DNA from: Citreicoccus inhibens
GTDB taxonomy: Bacteria > Myxococcota > Myxococcia > Myxococcales > Myxococcaceae
DNA length: 64,000 nt
NCBI RefSeq assembly: GCF_019039035.1
Contig: NZ_JAHNZT010000006.1
Span: 124,001-188,000 of the forward strand
Direction of reading: 5' to 3'
The translations under genes and the position numbers were made by a program. The notes beneath the pieces were generated by a model, which saw nothing but the letters and a program-made list of their open reading frames with translations, had not been told where the DNA came from and did no database searches. This document shows positions 39,366-48,388 of this stretch, piece by piece (position 1 is the stretch's first letter; the number at the start of each line of letters is the position of its first letter).

Positions 39366-42335
39366 ATGCGCAATCCGTGTCGCTGTGCGGTCTGGCTCAT
39401 CTTGTCCTGTCTCTCGATGGCGACGCTCGCTCGCGCGGAGGACCTCGCATCGCCCCCCGCAACCCCCAGCGCCGCCGCGGAGTGCCTCCCATCCGGCGAA
39501 CCGCCGCCCAATGACGGGCGCTACAAGACGGAGCAGGAGCTGTGCTGGCTCGCGCCCCGCGGCATCCCGGCGGTGGGGTTGGCGCCTCCCGTCGGCCCGC
39601 TGTGGGAGGCCGCGGAGGAGCCCTACGCCCTGCTGCTGCGCAAGTTCATCCTCGACCGGGTCTACACGACCCAGCTCGGATGGCTGTCGGATACGCACTG
39701 GCGTCTGAGTGGCCCCGTGCAGGGCTGCCCCCAGGACAAGACGCTCAAGAACCTGGGGGTCCATCCCGCCGTGCGCATCTATTACTCCCCGGAGATGATC
39801 GCCTGGATGTGTGGAGGCCGGGTGGGTGTACCGCCGCCCGGGGCAATGATTGTCAAAGAGATGCACGCGTTGGATGAGAAGACCCTGTACATCCAACCCT
39901 CCACGCAGAACCTCTACGTGCGGCAGAGCACGGTCGCCGACAGCTTCACGGTGATGGTGAAGTCCTCGGGAGGCTCTCGGGACCAGTGGTACTGGGCGTA
40001 CTTCGACTACAAGCAGGTGGGCAATCCCCCCATCCGGGATCGCTCCGGCGTGAGCCTCTCCAATTTCCCCGCGCATCCGACGCAGTTGGATCCAAGCTGG
40101 CTGCCCACCGGCAATCCCCAGGGCACCGTCGTGTTCCCCTATTACGGGTTCGGGCCTGACTGCATCAACTGCCACGCCTCCGCGGAGAAGGAGTCCACCT
40201 TCATCGCACTGGAGAGCCTCATCGGGCGCGAGCATGTCTATCATTACCAGGGGCGGGTCGCGGCCTTCGCGCCCAATGCCATCGCCTGGGACTTGCTGGG
40301 GCCACACCCCGCCGTCCCCGCGCGCGCGGTCCCGGCCTCCCTCCGGGCGGCGGCACCTCCCGCGGCCCGCCCCAGCGGTGACTTCCTCCGCGAGTTTCCC
40401 CAGCTCTCGGCGCTCTCCTTCGAGCAGGCGTGGGAGCTGCGCTTCCCGGCCGAGACCTACGACCACGTGCCCGCCCCACCCGGACCTGGAGCGCCGGCGA
40501 TGTTCCTGACCTCCGACCAGTGCATCTCCTGTCACGACGCCACGGTGACCACGGGCAAGACGCCGAACATGATCCAGATGCGCGAGCACGGCGCGCCCCT
40601 CAACCTCTCGCCCTATGCCGAGTGGCGGGCAAGTCCCATGGGCCTGGCGGGAAGAGACCCCATCTTCTTCGCCCAACTCGAAAGCGAGCTGAACCTCGCG
40701 GTCGCCCAGGCGGGGCTGAAGGGCAAGGGCAAGTGCATCGAGAACCTCTGCCTGCATTGCCACGGAGCCATGGGGAAGCGACAGCTCGCGCTCGACACGC
40801 AGCTCATTCCCCCGGACCCGGCCTGCAAGGGATTGCTGCCAGACGACCAACTGCGTGGCGGCAAGCTCTTCTCCCGGAAGATGGCGGCGGCGTGGCGGGA
40901 TGAGCAGCCCGCCCTGGCGAAGTACGGCGGGCTCGCGCGGGATGGCATCTCCTGCGCGGTCTGCCATCACATCTCCAACGAGGGCTTCGGGAACGAAGCG
41001 ACCTACACGGGCAACTTCAAGCTCACCTCCACCACCGAGTTGGTGGGGCCGTACGCGGACGTGAAGGTGAAGCCCATGGAGCACGCGCTGGGAATCACCC
41101 CACGCGGGGCGCCGTACACCCAAGACGGGGACCTCTGTTCGAGCTGCCACGCCATCCGGCTGCCCGTGTTCTCCAATGACGGCACCTTGCACGGCGTGCA
41201 CTACGAGCAGGCCACGTATCTGGAATGGCTGAACAGCGACTCCCATGACACGGCCTGCCAGGACTGCCACATGTCCCAGAAGCATGACGGCAAGCCGTTG
41301 ACGTTCAAGATCGCCAACATCGAGGACGACACCTTCCCCATCACCGAGGGGCGGCTGCCGGACTCGGAGCTGGCGCTCGCGCCGCGCAGCACCTACTCAC
41401 GGCACACGCTGTTCGGGCTCAACCTCTTCCTCACCGCGTTCTTCGAGCAGTTCCCCTTGCAGTTGGGGATCCGGCAAGTCGACTACATGAACAGCGGCCC
41501 GGTGCCGGCGCTCGTCACCGCGCGAGAGGCCGTGCTCTCGGAGATGCGGCCGTTGACCGCGAGCCTCGCCATCCCCTCCATCCAACCCATTCCGCAGGGA
41601 GTGGCCGTGACGGTCACCGTCACGAACAAGGCGGGCCACAACTTCCCCAGCGGGGTGGGCTTCCGGCGCGCGTTCATCGAGTTCCTCGTGCTGGACGAGA
41701 GCGGCCGTCCGCTCTGGGCCTCGGGGCGGACGTCGGCGGTGGGCGAGCTGCTGGATGGCCTGAGCAACACCGTCTTGCCGAGTGAGTTCTTCCTGCCGGG
41801 CCCGCAGGGGCAGCAGCTCTTCCAGCCGCACCACCAGGTCATCCAGCAGGGCAACCAGGTGCAGATCTACGAAGAGTTGATCCGCGACTCGGAGGGGCGC
41901 TTCACGACCAGCTTCCTGCACCAGTATCAGGTGGAGAAAGACAATCGCCTGCGGCCCCGAGGCTGGAGCCCCACGGGCCCCTTCGCGAGCGAGACGAAGT
42001 CCACGGGGACCGGCACGGACCCGGACTACGTCCCGAACCCGAAGCTGAGCGGCACGGACTCGGTGCGCTACGAAGTGACGTTGCCGCCCAACGTGCTGTC
42101 GCAAGTGCGGAGCATCCAGGCCACGCTGTACTACCAGGCCACTCCGCCGTACTACCTGGCGCAGCGCTTCGACAGCGGCCGCAAGGGGCCCTCACGGCTG
42201 GACATCCAGCGGCTGTATTACCTCGCCAGCAACCTGGACGTGGACGCGCCCGCCGAGGACGGCAAGCCCTATCTCCAAGGATGGAAGCTGCCCATCACCC
42301 AGGCCCGCGTGGACGTGAAGCCCGCACTCCCGTGA
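39366..42335 (+). CDS. Exported six-haem c-type cytochrome
   Basis: The protein has 989 residues. A signal peptide ends near LARA (about residue 24). Six CxxCH haem-attachment motifs occur, with first cysteines at about 266, 386, 462, 530, 591 and 631 (CINCH, CISCH, CLHCH, CAVCH, CSSCH, CQDCH). The C-terminal third (about 700-980) has none and looks beta-rich (VTVTVTNKAGHNFPSGVGFR). Haem would be attached in the periplasm and the protein may sit in the periplasm or on the outer surface. Multihaem cytochromes move electrons to terminal acceptors or between periplasmic enzymes. No other cytochrome or reductase gene is adjacent. It resembles uncharacterised long myxobacterial cytochromes; the redox partner is unknown. 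Confidence 0.9.
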   Translation: MRNPCRCAVWLILSCLSMATLARAEDLASPPATPSAAAECLPSGEPPPNDGRYKTEQELCWLAPRGIPAVGLAPPVGPLWEAAEEPYALLLRKFILDRVYTTQLGWLSDTHWRLSGPVQGCPQDKTLKNLGVHPAVRIYYSPEMIAWMCGGRVGVPPPGAMIVKEMHALDEKTLYIQPSTQNLYVRQSTVADSFTVMVKSSGGSRDQWYWAYFDYKQVGNPPIRDRSGVSLSNFPAHPTQLDPSWLPTGNPQGTVVFPYYGFGPDCINCHASAEKESTFIALESLIGREHVYHYQGRVAAFAPNAIAWDLLGPHPAVPARAVPASLRAAAPPAARPSGDFLREFPQLSALSFEQAWELRFPAETYDHVPAPPGPGAPAMFLTSDQCISCHDATVTTGKTPNMIQMREHGAPLNLSPYAEWRASPMGLAGRDPIFFAQLESELNLAVAQAGLKGKGKCIENLCLHCHGAMGKRQLALDTQLIPPDPACKGLLPDDQLRGGKLFSRKMAAAWRDEQPALAKYGGLARDGISCAVCHHISNEGFGNEATYTGNFKLTSTTELVGPYADVKVKPMEHALGITPRGAPYTQDGDLCSSCHAIRLPVFSNDGTLHGVHYEQATYLEWLNSDSHDTACQDCHMSQKHDGKPLTFKIANIEDDTFPITEGRLPDSELALAPRSTYSRHTLFGLNLFLTAFFEQFPLQLGIRQVDYMNSGPVPALVTAREAVLSEMRPLTASLAIPSIQPIPQGVAVTVTVTNKAGHNFPSGVGFRRAFIEFLVLDESGRPLWASGRTSAVGELLDGLSNTVLPSEFFLPGPQGQQLFQPHHQVIQQGNQVQIYEELIRDSEGRFTTSFLHQYQVEKDNRLRPRGWSPTGPFASETKSTGTGTDPDYVPNPKLSGTDSVRYEVTLPPNVLSQVRSIQATLYYQATPPYYLAQRFDSGRKGPSRLDIQRLYYLASNLDVDAPAEDGKPYLQGWKLPITQARVDVKPALP

Positions 42336-42378: not shown

Positions 42379-42402
42379 GCCGGCCGGTGACTACCGGCTG
42401 GC
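42379..42402. terminator. Bidirectional terminator hairpin between cytochrome and solute-binding genes
   Basis: Arms gccggccggt and accggctggc pair over 10 bp with one G-T wobble around a gact loop. It overlaps the stop codon of the solute-binding gene (42391-42393) and lies 43 bp past the cytochrome stop. Its position favours termination of the cytochrome transcript; for the other gene it may act more as a 3' stabiliser. Confidence 0.55.
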
Positions 42403-43575
42403 CATCAGGCGCGTCCACAGCGTGAGCAGGTTGCGGACCACGGGGCCCTCGGGAATCTCTGCCACGGGGGGCACGTCCACCTGCACGCCTTGCTCCGCCA
42501 GCCGCGTGAACGGGTTCGCCGGGTCCTGCGTCTTCAACGGCACCGAGGGGTCCGCCGGACGGAAGCCAAACGCCAGCGCCCGCTCCTGCACCGGGCGGCT
42601 GTGCAGGTAGCGCAGCCACTCGGCCGCCGCGACCTTCTGCTTCGGCGTCACCCAGCTGGCCTGCAGCACCGCCGCCGGATGGTCGCTCCAGAGCGTCAGC
42701 GAGGGGTAATACACCTTGAGGTTCCCCCACCGGCCCTGCGCGTTGGCGATCTGCGAAATCGCCAGGTTCTCGTACACCACCGCCACGTCGTACTTGGAGG
42801 GCCCGAAGCGGACCATGTCCGTCATGAACGTGCCCGTGGAGGGCTCGAAGCGCGTCACGCCCTTCTCCAACTGCTTCACCCAGTCCTGGAACTTGGGGTC
42901 CAGGAGGTCCCCCACCGTCAGGCCCGTGCGCTTGCCGTAGAACTCCATCGTCGCCAGCAACAACGCCTGCAATCCCGAGTTGGAGCGCGTGGGGTCCGTG
43001 TGGCCCAGCTTCACGAAGCCCCAGTCCGCCTTGCCGCCGATCGCCGGCCAGCCCTGGTCGCTCGCCACCGCCTTGTGCAGCGTCTTCCACGACACGCCCT
43101 GCCCCGCGTTCGCCTTCTGGAGCACCTGCGCCCGGTCCTCCCACACCACGAACACGAGCGGCGTAATCACCAGCGGCTGCGGCGCCGCGTCCCCATCCGT
43201 GGCGAACAGCGCACCTCGCGTGGGGTCCGTGGCCCAGTCCGAGGAGAGCATCCGCAACACCGCGCTGTCCGCCGGGCTCCACACCGTGGGCTTCTCGCGC
43301 CCATCCAGGATGGCCTGCGCCGCGTCCAGCGAGCCCCGCCCCACCAGCGTCACCTTGATGTCCGGGTGCTCCTGCTGGAAGCCCGCCGCCGCGGCCTCCA
43401 CCCAGTCCTTCTTCTCCGTGCTGTAGAGGAAGGAGATCTCCGTCACGTCCCGAGACGGCGTCGCCGCGCTCGCGGTGCTGGCGCCCGGCACCTCGTCCCC
43501 CCGCTTGGAGGTCAGGTAGAAGACGCCGCCCACCGCGGCGAGGAATCCGATGATGATGAGGACCTTGGGCTTCAT
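42391..43575 (-). CDS. Membrane-anchored extracellular solute-binding protein, last gene of VWA module
   Basis: The protein has 394 residues. An N-terminal hydrophobic segment (VLIIIGFLAAVGGVFYLTS) without a lipobox anchors or exports it. The body is a periplasmic binding-protein fold with SFLYSTEKKDWVEAAAAGF, VWSPADSAVLRML and VVYENLAISQ. It resembles the binding half of the VWA lipoprotein upstream, most clearly in LWSDHPAAVLQASWV, RPVQERALAFGFRPADPSV. The two are therefore duplicates. No ABC permease or ATPase gene is adjacent, which argues against ordinary import. Its ATG overlaps the coiled-coil gene's stop (ATGA), so it is translationally coupled to it. Confidence 0.85.
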   Translation of the reverse strand: MKPKVLIIIGFLAAVGGVFYLTSKRGDEVPGASTASAATPSRDVTEISFLYSTEKKDWVEAAAAGFQQEHPDIKVTLVGRGSLDAAQAILDGREKPTVWSPADSAVLRMLSSDWATDPTRGALFATDGDAAPQPLVITPLVFVVWEDRAQVLQKANAGQGVSWKTLHKAVASDQGWPAIGGKADWGFVKLGHTDPTRSNSGLQALLLATMEFYGKRTGLTVGDLLDPKFQDWVKQLEKGVTRFEPSTGTFMTDMVRFGPSKYDVAVVYENLAISQIANAQGRWGNLKVYYPSLTLWSDHPAAVLQASWVTPKQKVAAAEWLRYLHSRPVQERALAFGFRPADPSVPLKTQDPANPFTRLAEQGVQVDVPPVAEIPEGPVVRNLLTLWTRLMASR

Positions 43576-44381
43576 GACGCGACTCCCACCGCTTGGAACG
43601 ACTGGAGGGACTCCTCGAAGGCACCGAGCTCGCCGTTCATCCGGCCCAGTTCCTCGTTGAGGTCCCCGTACATGCTTTCGGTTGCCTGCGCATCCAGCGC
43701 GCGCAGGCGCATCACTTGGGCGGGCAGGCCCTGCATCGTCGCGGCGATGCGCGTCAGGTTGGCCAGCACCCGGTCATGCGCCGCGCCAATGTCCCGCAGC
43801 GCCTGGAGCTGCGCCTCGTGCGCCGCCCGGGCGCTCTCGTACTGAGCCCGCGCCTCGGCGTCCTTCGCCTGCGTCGCCTGCTGCGAGGTGACGCGAATGG
43901 CCTCTCGCACCGCCTGGGCGTCCGTCGCGCGCAGGAAGGCGGACAACTCGTCACCGCGCGCGGCCAACCGCCACGCCCGCTCCTCCAACTCCCGCAACGA
44001 CGTCAGCGCCAGCCCCAGTTGGGCCCGCACGCCCGCGGGCGCATCCTCCAGCGCATTCTCCAACGAGCGCCGCGCGCCGAGCATGCCGAGCATGGCCTCG
44101 CGCACCCGGGGGTCCGCGAAGGCCCGTGCGTCCAGCGGACCGCCGGGCCGCGCGCCCTGGGGGCGGGACAACACCCCGCGCCAGAAGTCCGGCGAGGCCA
44201 CGTCCCACGCCACCATCGCCGCATAGGCTGCGCCGCCCAGCGCGAGCACCGGCCACGAGTGCAGCGCCGCCGCGCCCAGGGCTCCGGCCCCCGCCACCCC
44301 GAGGTTCAAGGGAGCCGCCGCCGCGCGCCCCAGCACGCGGGGCAGGTGTTGCAGCAAGGTGCTCACGCCGCGCTCGGCCAT
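43572..44381 (-). CDS. Membrane-associated coiled-coil protein of the VWA module
   Basis: The protein has 269 residues. An N-terminal hydrophobic region (about residues 25-60, LNLGVAGAGALGAAALHSWP and ALGGAAYAAMVAWD) could form one or two membrane segments. The rest is almost entirely helical: RSLENALEDA, then a long Ala/Glu/Gln/Arg-rich stretch (about 130-260, e.g. QQATQAKDAEARAQYESA) typical of a coiled coil. No enzyme motif is visible. It sits between two solute-binding paralogues, 58 bp after the VWA lipoprotein gene and overlapping the next one by 4 nt. It may organise the two binding proteins into a membrane complex. Similar proteins occur in families annotated for toxic-anion resistance, but I cannot confirm that. 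Confidence 0.75.
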   Translation of the reverse strand: MAERGVSTLLQHLPRVLGRAAAAPLNLGVAGAGALGAAALHSWPVLALGGAAYAAMVAWDVASPDFWRGVLSRPQGARPGGPLDARAFADPRVREAMLGMLGARRSLENALEDAPAGVRAQLGLALTSLRELEERAWRLAARGDELSAFLRATDAQAVREAIRVTSQQATQAKDAEARAQYESARAAHEAQLQALRDIGAAHDRVLANLTRIAATMQGLPAQVMRLRALDAQATESMYGDLNEELGRMNGELGAFEESLQSFQAVGVAS

Positions 44382-44439
44382 CGAGGTGCCTCCCAGTCGG
44401 CGGTGGAAGCGTAGGCGGTGGAAGAAGAACGGGGCATGG

Positions 44440-46137
44440 TCAGAAGAACGAAGCGACGTCCCGGTATACCTGGACGATGTCCTCCACGTTGCCGCGAGAG
44501 AACGAGCCCTTGCCCGACTCGGCGATCTGCTCCAGGACCTGCCCCTCCGCGTCGTTGCCGTAGGCGATGGTGAAGACGCGCACCGTGGACTCGCGCTCGC
44601 TGTCTCCCGTGAGCCCCGCCTTGAGCTGCGCGAGCGACAGCACGCTGCTCTCATCCCGTCCGTCCGTCATCACCACCACCGCGTGGATGCGGCCGGGCGC
44701 CACCTTCGCCCGAGCCTGGGAGGCCCGGTACGCGGCCAGCGTGGCCTCGTACAGCGCGGTGCCACCATCCGCGAGCGCCGTGTCGATGCGGCTGCCCAGC
44801 TCCGCGCGCCCCGCGGCGTCCAGCACGCGCGGCCCCACCACCGGATAGACGTTGTTGTCGAAGAAGAGCAGGGCCACCTCGTCCCGGTCGGAGAGCGTGT
44901 CGAGGAAGCGGCGAGCGCCGACCTTCGCCTCGGCCAGCGGGCGGCCCTTCATGCTGCCGGACTTGTCGAACACGAAGACGATGTCGGTGGCCTTCTTCGT
45001 CTGGCGCCACGTGGCGAGCAGCGACTCCAGCACATTCGCCTCGGGGACCTCCAGGAGCGTCTGCGGCTGGCGCGGGTCCGCGCCGTGCGCGGCGTCCACC
45101 GGCGTGGTGATGGCGATGGAGGGATCCGCCGGCCGGAAGCCGAGCGCGAGCGCCCGCTCCTGCGCGGGCCGGGCCTTGAGGAAGGCGAGGAACGCCGCGG
45201 CCGCCGCCCGCTCCTCCGGGCCCACCCACTCCGCGTCCAGCACCGCATAGGGGTGGTCCGACCAGAAGGTGCCCTCCACCGGGTAGAGCGACACGAGCGG
45301 GAACGGGGCGTCGGAGGCCTTGCCCTGGGACTCGATGACCAGGTTCTCGTACAGCACCGCGGCGGACATGTAGCCCGGGCCGCGCTGGAGCATCTTGTCC
45401 GCGAAGAAGCCGGTGGACTTGCCGTAGTGCACCACCGTGGACTCGATGCGCTGGAGCATCGCCCGCGTCGCCTCCGAGCCCACGTCCTGAGCCGTCAGCC
45501 CGCGCGTCTTGCCGGCGCCCGCATAGGCCTCGGCGAGCACGGCCAGGAGCCCCGAGTTGGAGAACTCGGGGTGGGTGTGGCCCAGCTTGAAGCTCCCCCA
45601 CTCGGGGTGCCCGTAGTCGGCCCAGCCACGCGGGCTGGCCGCCACCTTGAGGAGGTCCGCCCACCCCAGCTGCTTCGCGGGCCAGCCCAGCGCCTCCGCC
45701 ATGGGCTTCCACATGGCGATGACGATGGGCGACAGGAGCACCGGCTCGCCCTGCCCCACCAGCGGCTGCGTGCGGCCGGACGTGGCCATCCAGGCGCTGT
45801 TGAGCAGCGGCAGGTACGCGGTCGAGGCCGGGCTGAAGACGTGGGCCTTGAGTCGCCCGGACGCAATCTCCTGCACCGCCTCGCCCGACCCCAGGGCCTT
45901 GCCCACCACGCGGATGGGCCGGCCGCTCGGCGTCACGGCGCCGCTGGCCTCGAAGGCCCGGGCCTGCTCCTCCAGCCACGTCTTCTTCTCGCTGCCGTAG
46001 GCCACGGTCAGCACCAGCGCGCGGTCTGGCACCGCCTCGGCGCGCGCGGTGGCCTCGTCCCGGGGCCCCTCGCCCGTCCCGCACTTGCAGGCGCTCAGCA
46101 GCACCAGCGCCAGCATTCCGATGTGGACCTTCCGCAT
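44440..46137 (-). CDS. Solute-binding plus VWA domain lipoprotein
   Basis: The protein has 565 residues. A lipoprotein signal (LVLLSACKC, Cys about 15-17) anchors it. Residues about 35-345 form a periplasmic binding-protein domain resembling the downstream paralogue. Residues about 370-560 form a von Willebrand A domain with an intact metal-ion (MIDAS) site: DKSGSMKG, a Thr in the DGGTALYEATL region, and TDGRDESS. VWA domains bind protein partners through the metal. The fusion of a ligand-binding and a protein-binding domain suggests ligand-regulated assembly rather than uptake. It is the first gene of a three-gene unit with a coiled-coil protein and the paralogue. NCBI-type naming for such fusions is substrate-binding and VWA domain protein; function is unknown. 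Confidence 0.88.
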   Translation of the reverse strand: MRKVHIGMLALVLLSACKCGTGEGPRDEATARAEAVPDRALVLTVAYGSEKKTWLEEQARAFEASGAVTPSGRPIRVVGKALGSGEAVQEIASGRLKAHVFSPASTAYLPLLNSAWMATSGRTQPLVGQGEPVLLSPIVIAMWKPMAEALGWPAKQLGWADLLKVAASPRGWADYGHPEWGSFKLGHTHPEFSNSGLLAVLAEAYAGAGKTRGLTAQDVGSEATRAMLQRIESTVVHYGKSTGFFADKMLQRGPGYMSAAVLYENLVIESQGKASDAPFPLVSLYPVEGTFWSDHPYAVLDAEWVGPEERAAAAAFLAFLKARPAQERALALGFRPADPSIAITTPVDAAHGADPRQPQTLLEVPEANVLESLLATWRQTKKATDIVFVFDKSGSMKGRPLAEAKVGARRFLDTLSDRDEVALLFFDNNVYPVVGPRVLDAAGRAELGSRIDTALADGGTALYEATLAAYRASQARAKVAPGRIHAVVVMTDGRDESSVLSLAQLKAGLTGDSERESTVRVFTIAYGNDAEGQVLEQIAESGKGSFSRGNVEDIVQVYRDVASFF

Positions 46138-46363
46138 CGACGTCTCTCCCCCTTCGGTGAGTCGATGCCCACTGTGAAAGGCCCCGCCGTGGCCCCACAA
46201 GTCAGCCCCCCGTCTCCGCTGCCGTTCTCACCCCCTCGTCACACGGGCGTCACCTGTTCGTGGCAGTCGTGCCCGCCTGCTCATACGGGGCGTGGGTGAA
46301 TTTCGACTGCACGCAGGCTCCTCGTCGTTGGTTTGCCTTCCAACCGGCTGGCACAGTGGCCGG

Positions 46364-47224
46364 ATGAAGGTGATTTGGCGGCGGATGGCCCTCCTGGGCC
46401 TGGGCGCGGCGCTGGGCGCCTGCGCGACGACCCCCGCGCCCCCCGTCCAGCGGTACTCCCTGGGCATGGCGCGCGTGGACTACCGAGACTACGCGGCGGC
46501 GAAGTCCAACCTCTGCAAGGCCGAGCCGCGGTGGCTGTCGGACGAGCTGTCAGCGGTGAACGGGATGCTGGCGCGCTTCCTCCAGGAGACGGCGGACGCG
46601 ACGCATCCGGATGCGGTGGAGCATCCCCAGCACCTGGCGCTCTTGCAGGAGGCCGCGCGCAGCCTGCCCCCGGTGCTCACGGTCCACCAGCGCAACCTCA
46701 CGAAGTTGCAGGAGTGCCGCTTCCGGCGCGCGGGGGCCTTCCCGGACATCGCCCAACGCGGCGCGGCGCTGGTGAAGGAGGCGCAGGAGAGGCTGGCCCA
46801 GGCGCCTCAAGCGGCGGCCGCGGCGGCGCTGAGCGAGGCCCGTCAGAAGTGGCGCGACGAGGCCGAGGAGCGCGAGGCCACGGCCCGGCGCACCTGGTGC
46901 TCGAAGAAGCCGCAGATGGGCGAGCCGGACCTGTACTTCGCGCGTCAGGCGGCCAACGAGCGCATCGAGTGGCTCTTCTGCGACGGGCACCGCGTGGAGC
47001 AGGGCGAGGACGGCGCGCTACAACTGGTGAGCCCCGACGGACTCAGCCGCCAGGAGCGCAAGCGCCTCCAGGCCCAGCGCTACCTGGAGGCCGCGCGCGA
47101 GTACCCGTCCGAGGAGATCGACCGGCCGCCGCGCACCGTGCCCGCCGAGGCGCCCGCGACCGATACGAGCGCCCCGGAGACTCCCGCCCCCAAGGAACCC
47201 GCCCCGCCGTTCGAGTCGCCCTGA
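46364..47224 (+). CDS. Uncharacterised coiled-coil lipoprotein
   Basis: The protein has 286 residues. A lipoprotein signal (LGLGAALGAC) begins it. The chain is mostly helical, with a heptad-like Ala/Glu/Arg segment (about 140-190, QERLAQAPQAAAAAALSEAR), a cysteine-bearing stretch (WCSKKPQMGEPDLYFARQAA) and a Pro-rich C-terminal tail (about 255-286). No known domain was recognised. ATG 46364 was chosen because the lipoprotein signal starts there. It converges on another lipoprotein gene, the stops being 1 bp apart. An envelope structural role is guesswork. Confidence 0.75.
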   Translation: MKVIWRRMALLGLGAALGACATTPAPPVQRYSLGMARVDYRDYAAAKSNLCKAEPRWLSDELSAVNGMLARFLQETADATHPDAVEHPQHLALLQEAARSLPPVLTVHQRNLTKLQECRFRRAGAFPDIAQRGAALVKEAQERLAQAPQAAAAAALSEARQKWRDEAEEREATARRTWCSKKPQMGEPDLYFARQAANERIEWLFCDGHRVEQGEDGALQLVSPDGLSRQERKRLQAQRYLEAAREYPSEEIDRPPRTVPAEAPATDTSAPETPAPKEPAPPFESP

Positions 47225-47225
47225 C

Positions 47226-47936
47226 TCAAGGCGTGTAGGTGACGATGACGTGGTTGCCCGTCACCATCAGCCGCCGGGGCGTCGCCGAGGTGCCCTGGAT
47301 GGAGAGGTCGAACACGAGCGGGAGGCGCAGCGCGCGCTGGTTCATCTCGTCCGTGAGCTGCCGCTCGTAGCCCGCGCCCTCCTTGGAGTTGAAGCGGGCC
47401 TGCACCGCCTGGGCGCGCGCCTGGACGGAGGACCCCTCCAGCGTGAGCTGCACCTCCAGGTCGGCCACCGCGCCCGCCGCCACGGCGCGCTCGAAGTCGC
47501 GCACCTGCCCCTTGGCGAAGGACGGCACCTTCCCGGTGTAGCGCACGTTGTCGCCGCGCAGGTGGGCGCGACAGGCGAGCCGGTTGCGAGACAGCGGGCG
47601 GAAGTCGGTGAGGCGCTCGACGACGATGTCGCCGGCGAGCTTGCTGTGGAAGTCCCGGCCCGGCATCCGGTACGGCACCATCCGCGAGGCCGCCTGCTCC
47701 AGCGTGGCGGGCGCGTAGTACAGCGAGAAGGTGTTGCCCGCTTTCGCTGGGGACTGAAGCTCCTCGGAGTACTCGGCCGAGGCGCGCACGGCTTCGTCCG
47801 CCGCCTGGGTGGCCTGGGTGAGCCGGGCGTTCTCCTGCTCCAGCGCCATCATCCGCGCGCGGGGATCCGACGCGCAGCCCATGAGCCCCGTCCACGCGAC
47901 CAGTCCCATCGCGGACCAACGACTCGCGGCCCTCAT
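47226..47936 (-). CDS. Uncharacterised lipoprotein, second of a coupled pair
   Basis: The protein has 236 residues. A lipoprotein signal ends in GLMGC. A short coiled coil (MMALEQENARLTQATQAADE) is followed by a beta-rich domain with NTFSLYYAPATLEQAASRM, DFHSKLAGDIVVERLTDF and a hydrophobic C-terminus (RRLMVTGNHVIVTYTP). The ATG overlaps the stop of the preceding lipoprotein gene (ATGA), so the two are coupled. Its N-terminal coiled coil may pair with that of the partner. No family was recognised; anchored outer-membrane accessory protein is the most that can be said. Confidence 0.75.
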   Translation of the reverse strand: MRAASRWSAMGLVAWTGLMGCASDPRARMMALEQENARLTQATQAADEAVRASAEYSEELQSPAKAGNTFSLYYAPATLEQAASRMVPYRMPGRDFHSKLAGDIVVERLTDFRPLSRNRLACRAHLRGDNVRYTGKVPSFAKGQVRDFERAVAAGAVADLEVQLTLEGSSVQARAQAVQARFNSKEGAGYERQLTDEMNQRALRLPLVFDLSIQGTSATPRRLMVTGNHVIVTYTP

Positions 47937-48358
47937 GGCGAGGCCACCTGGCACGTGCCCTGGGACACCTTCCACGTGCCCACCGTGCGCGCGGGCGTGA
48001 AGGAGGTCGTCACGCGATAGCTCTGGCGCTGGAGCGCGAGCTTCGCGTGCACCGCGCCCGAGCGAGGCAGTCCGCGCGCGGGCGAGGCCGAGGGCGTCGC
48101 GCCGGCACAGCCCAGCGAGCCGAGCTGCGCGGCATCCTCCGCGCGAGTCACCGCCGCGAAGGACTGCTCGACCTCCGCCTCCTTGCGGCGCAGCTCCTCA
48201 CGCAGCTGTTGGTTGCGCTCCTCGAGCGCGTCCGCGCGCTTCTCCATGCTCGCGTCGGACGCCATGTTCGGGTTGCGCCCAGCACTCCGGGATGCGCAGC
48301 CCACCGTCGCCAGCAGCACGCACAGCGCCGCCAGCCCCCCACGTGACGAGATGTTCAT
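47933..48358 (-). CDS. Uncharacterised small coiled-coil lipoprotein, first of a coupled pair
   Basis: The protein has 141 residues. The lipoprotein signal ends in LLATVGC. Residues about 40-75 form a heptad-repeat coiled coil (EKRADALEERNQQLREELRR). The C-terminal half carries GCAG and ends in GTWKVSQGTCQVASP, where two cysteines may pair. It overlaps the next lipoprotein gene by 4 nt and shares its N-terminal coiled-coil layout, which suggests the two proteins form a complex at the envelope. Start 48358 was preferred over the upstream extension because the signal begins there. Confidence 0.75.
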   Translation of the reverse strand: MNISSRGGLAALCVLLATVGCASRSAGRNPNMASDASMEKRADALEERNQQLREELRRKEAEVEQSFAAVTRAEDAAQLGSLGCAGATPSASPARGLPRSGAVHAKLALQRQSYRVTTSFTPARTVGTWKVSQGTCQVASP

Positions 48359-48388
48359 GCCTGCCCAGGCTAGCACCGGGCCCGGGCT

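Follow-up and report, generated by a model that had tools for sequence, protein, structure and literature searches.

A permease-free module of two ancient solute-binding paralogues, a VWA domain and a membrane-hairpin rod protein in Citreicoccus inhibens, with a possible role in envelope-stress reception

In most phyla, the input signals of PspA and TelA are little understood. Ravi et al. 2024 (PMC11237479) reported operons in which PspA is accompanied by a two-AAA+ protein, TM-Snf7, ABC genes and a solute-binding protein (SBP); the main text of that paper nowhere mentions VWA or Willebrand, and does not describe a pair made of an SBP and an SBP fused to a VWA domain (SBP-VWA). TelA is part of an envelope module, XpaC/TelA, represented by Listeria lmo1966-1967 (PMC12791056). 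The FtsZl1/vWA operons of Makarova and Koonin 2010, for which membrane remodelling was predicted, encode VWA proteins whose MIDAS is mostly intact and some of which have signal peptides (PMC2875224). An NCBI annotation, 'substrate-binding and VWA domain-containing protein', with records from Streptomyces and Variovorax, denotes the same architecture as SBP-VWA; it is a name only, and we found no function or module described for it. In the open-licence literature we did not find the trio of SBP-VWA, SBP and rod protein described; an earlier description within a Ter/TelA stress network is possible.

The window, a stretch of 64,000 nucleotides of Citreicoccus inhibens DNA, contains this trio as a three-gene locus on one strand (Table 1), and all of its open reading frames lie where the initial annotation had placed them. 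The rod gene has a GGGAGG upstream of its ATG. Its overlap with the second SBP gene, also described initially, is an ATGA, which suggests that translation of the rod protein and of the TM-anchored SBP is coupled. No ABC transporter subunit is encoded in the locus, and neither a PspA gene nor an AAA+ gene adjoins it. Two lipoprotein-like neighbours (46292-47224 and 47226-48376) are syntenic with the SBP in many Myxococcaceae. Convergent to the module, a plus-strand gene (39366-42335) encodes a protein of 989 aa that contains six CxxCH haem motifs and has weak Pfam matches only.

Table 1. Positions of the trio and of its features in the window.
Feature	Position	Strand	Remark or basis
Trio of Citreicoccus inhibens	46137-42391	minus	gene order SBP-VWA, rod, SBP
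SBP-VWA lipoprotein, 565 aa	44440-46137	minus	gene one; ATG at 46137
Lipobox L-S-A-C (LLSAC), residues 14-17	46087-46098	minus	from sequence
SBP_bac_11 domain, residues 43-335	45133-46011	minus	Pfam; AF2 model; PDB fold matches
VWA domain, residues 385-543	44509-44985	minus	Pfam; fold matches to known VWA domains
MIDAS loop DKSGS, D391-S395	44953-44967	minus	site completed by T460, D492
TM-hairpin/helical-rod protein, 269 aa	43572-44381	minus	gene two, middle
Membrane hairpin, residues 24-62	44196-44312	minus	AF2 model; conserved in alignment
Long-helix rod, residues 91-266	43584-44111	minus	AF2 model; predicted cytoplasmic
ATGA overlap	43572-43575	minus	rod stop and SBP start, from sequence
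TM-anchored SBP, 394 aa	42391-43575	minus	gene three
N-terminal TM anchor of second SBP, about residues 5-22	43510-43563	minus	from sequence

Both domains of the SBP-VWA lipoprotein were recognized by Pfam (SBP_bac_11, PF13531, 1.4e-19; VWA, 5.9e-17). In its predicted structure (pLDDT 90.9, pTM 0.87), the SBP part matches the folds of AfuA, sulfate-binding and ferric-binding proteins, and the VWA part those of extracellular VWA domains, among them inter-alpha-inhibitor heavy chains. The MIDAS, reported initially as intact, could be assigned to five residues, D391, S393, S395, T460 and D492, which are kept in 58-59 of 59 aligned homologues. The C-terminal FF of SBP-VWA (window 44443-44448) is near-invariant (56 of 59).

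The TM-anchored SBP carries the same Pfam domain (SBP_bac_11, PF13531, 1.5e-20), and the blocks SDHPxAVL, (A/V)QERALA(F/L)GFRPADPS and YENL are present in both SBPs as originally quoted. The two share about 39% identity (E about 1e-58), far beyond chance, as expected of the duplicates they had been taken for. In a maximum-likelihood tree of 56 SBP domains (quick search, SH-aLRT support, no bootstrap), VWA-fused and TM-anchored SBPs formed two reciprocally monophyletic groups split by a branch with SH-aLRT 100. Both groups contain Myxococcota, Chloroflexota, Verrucomicrobiota, Planctomycetota and Pseudomonadota; Acidobacteriota were sampled in the VWA-fused group and also occur among the aligned SBP partners. 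Since each of the two clades spans several phyla, the duplication is older than the spread of the pair, and the two SBPs are ancient paralogues. Fifty-two near-invariant positions are common to 59 SBP-VWA and 50 SBP sequences.

A Pfam search returned no family for the middle protein. Its AlphaFold model (pLDDT 90) has a short helical hairpin followed by long helices, and the charged ends of the hairpin point to the cytoplasm as the side of the rod. A PDB fold search, which also bears on a possible ESCRT-III fold, gave no match with E below 0.001. Rods from SBP-VWA-rod-SBP arrangements (group C1) and rods from PspA-containing arrangements (group C2) align with each other over 186 columns (E 1.6e-8). 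Unlike the TM-Snf7 of the published PspA operons, rod proteins match neither Snf7 nor PspA in Pfam (neither is listed for 38 rod-family members), and hhalign showed no sequence homology of the rod to PspA (probability 0.3-1.4%).

We surveyed 80 SBP-VWA loci from genome contigs, several of which end within the module, by six-frame profile searches in which partners were counted on the same strand. The trio is a recurrent unit: an SBP partner was found at 66 loci and a rod protein at 50, with PspA at 10 and an AAA+ protein of family PF00004 at 8, frequencies that do not describe solo SBPs because the survey was seeded from SBP-VWA matches. An ABC permease lay within 6 kb at only two of the 80 loci, both of them Pst phosphate operons, and an ABC ATPase was near six. 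The module, which recurs in six or more bacterial phyla and lacks a transporter there, is thus permease-free as first described; an adjacent permease/ATPase pair, whose presence in most genomes would have marked an importer, was looked for and is rare, which argues that the module is not an ordinary importer. In Myxococcota the genes run SBP-VWA, rod, SBP and in Chloroflexota SBP, SBP-VWA, rod; the order SBP-VWA, SBP, PspA, rod, AAA+ ATPase was seen in some Verrucomicrobiota, Acidobacteriota and Pseudomonadota. In Granulicella aggregans (L088), PspA belongs to the run.

SBP-VWA was absent from 37 of the 45 sampled genomes with an SBP orthologue, which speaks against a strictly interdependent trio; flanking genes were kept where inspected. 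The trio is not obligatory, since many Myxococcaceae retain just the SBP; SBP-VWA in turn stands alone in some genomes (loci L150 and L151). Because the trio also occurs elsewhere in Myxococcota (Polyangiaceae, Kofleriaceae and one Anaeromyxobacter MAG), its loss in part of Myxococcaceae is the simpler reading. In Myxococcus sp. RHSTA-1-4 (L075) and at G127:C64:26042-28472, a shortened SBP-VWA, matching residues 2-384, immediately precedes the SBP, and the search turned up no rod gene. Both loci are apparently decaying through loss of the VWA domain and the rod.

The C. inhibens genome has one PspA, on contig C45. It is encoded in a run on one strand with a TM-anchored NMT1-type SBP, which differs from the SBPs of the window, a C2-type rod and a lipoprotein-like protein; an ABC ATPase, an FtsX permease, a kinase and a two-AAA protein belong to the same run. 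With its PspA, AAA+ protein with an inactive N-terminal copy, TM-anchored coiled-coil protein and SBP, this run resembles the operons of PMC11237479, whereas the window trio differs from both in having neither PspA nor AAA+. Coordinates from 59 genomes of the order, read by eye, place 19 genes of the rod family at most about 3 kb away from pspA; weaker rod-profile matches elsewhere in those genomes resemble other coiled-coil proteins. This link of the rod family to cytosolic envelope-stress machinery is new here.

A sister branch includes TelA, as does the Listeria module. Nonomuraea, Variovorax and Sphaerotilus share the order TM-anchored SBP, TelA, SBP-VWA, TM-helical protein, which Deinococcus has without TelA. 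The upstream protein matches the SBP-partner profile (339 columns, E 6.8e-18), and the downstream protein has a rod-like architecture with marginal sequence similarity to the rod. SBP-VWA proteins of this branch end in IRxYQ instead of FF. In Streptomyces and Miltoncostaea, the gene after SBP-VWA encodes a C1-type rod. XpaC was not identified in a Pfam search of both branches. Unlike the TelA module, the genome of the window has no TelA (PF05816), so that a TelA/XpaC system was ruled out there as regards TelA. On a Variovorax plasmid (L169 9493-11446), JetA-type Wadjet genes lie ~2-3 kb from the TelA/SBP-VWA run.

The FtsZl1/vWA system, with which the window VWA shares an intact MIDAS, was ruled out, as this genome has no Tubulin_2/FtsZl1 (PF13809). 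A reading as a defence system was also rejected, the PADLOC match to the trio being single and weak (0.0072) and the linked AAA+ proteins matching IetA mainly over the ATPase part.

The rod family's ties to PspA/AAA+ operons and the presence of TelA in the sister branch argue for envelope stress rather than generic sensing. The initial annotation had proposed that the module could sense a ligand in the periplasm and pass the signal on by metal-dependent protein binding, a proposal to which conservation lends some weight; the duplication, the MIDAS and the lack of a permease on which it drew have stood, the trio proved to recur, and what it missed was the PspA/AAA+ tie of the middle protein and the TelA branch. 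Our tentative preference, to which we give somewhat less than an even chance, is that the trio forms a periplasmic receptor complex, a permease-free envelope-receptor module feeding PspA- or TelA-type membrane protection. Such a module would probably be an undescribed means by which the cell senses damage to its envelope or a solute that harms it. The two periplasmic SBPs, one lipid-anchored and VWA-fused, the other TM-anchored, would bind a ligand, either a solute or one that signals stress, and would change partners, probably via the MIDAS metal site. The middle protein, with a putative inner-membrane helical hairpin and cytosolic rod, may link the SBPs to PspA/AAA+ or TelA-type membrane-protection machinery; gene linkage and folds together suggest the complex, the direction of the signal and the role in envelope stress. 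Against the receptor reading, PspA and AAA+ occur at the minority of surveyed loci given above (10 and 8 of 80) and neither is in the window, the parts of the trio exist apart, and the rod has neither a PDB match nor similarity to PspA. A more far-reaching form of it, which taken as a whole we consider doubtful, would make the module a deeply conserved envelope sensor with two receptors, in which periplasmic solute binding is coupled via the MIDAS VWA domain and the hairpin rod to PspA/AAA+ or TelA, with interchangeable cytosolic effectors and transmembrane signalling that uses neither permease nor kinase.

The SBPs might instead be orphan importer components that feed an ABC permease encoded elsewhere, with the VWA domain and the rod as accessories. 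The SBP fold is indeed closest to SBPs that serve importers, namely AfuA, sulfate-binding protein and ferric-binding proteins, a ligand site could be among the 52 near-invariant positions that the paralogues have in common, and the genome has other SBP_bac_11 proteins, some of them, by inspection, beside permease-like genes. We nevertheless find this unlikely, since a permease is near so few loci (the two Pst operons), each SBP has an anchor and one of the two carries the VWA fusion, and the linkage is to PspA, AAA+ and TelA instead. Rather improbable in our view is a chaperone for assembly or metal insertion, in which VWA and AAA+ proteins would bring an envelope complex to maturity in the manner of NorQ/NorD and RavA/ViaA: the VWA domain has the intact MIDAS, an AAA+ protein is linked at eight loci, and VWA/AAA+ pairing is, according to two papers (PMC9976466, PMC10585395), known for MoxR systems, but the VWA domain here sits on a predicted lipoprotein outside the cytosol whereas AAA+ is cytosolic, the linked AAA+ proteins match PF00004 and not a MoxR family, and the window has no AAA+ neighbour. 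Least weight goes to adhesion to the surface or to peptidoglycan, with metal-dependent binding of a wall protein or a matrix protein by VWA and the SBPs serving as structural domains, which would suit the lipoprotein anchor and the resemblance of the VWA fold to extracellular VWA domains such as those of inter-alpha-inhibitor heavy chains. This has only a slim chance of being right, as SBP positions are strongly conserved in both paralogues, suggesting that the cleft is in use, and the rod family is linked to cytosolic PspA and the sister branch to TelA.

The receptor question is directly testable in cultured Myxococcota or Acidobacteriota. If the receptor reading is true, PspA and TelA would have a conserved receptor in the periplasm, with a membrane link to it, and the occurrence of an importer-annotated SBP family without a transporter would be explained.
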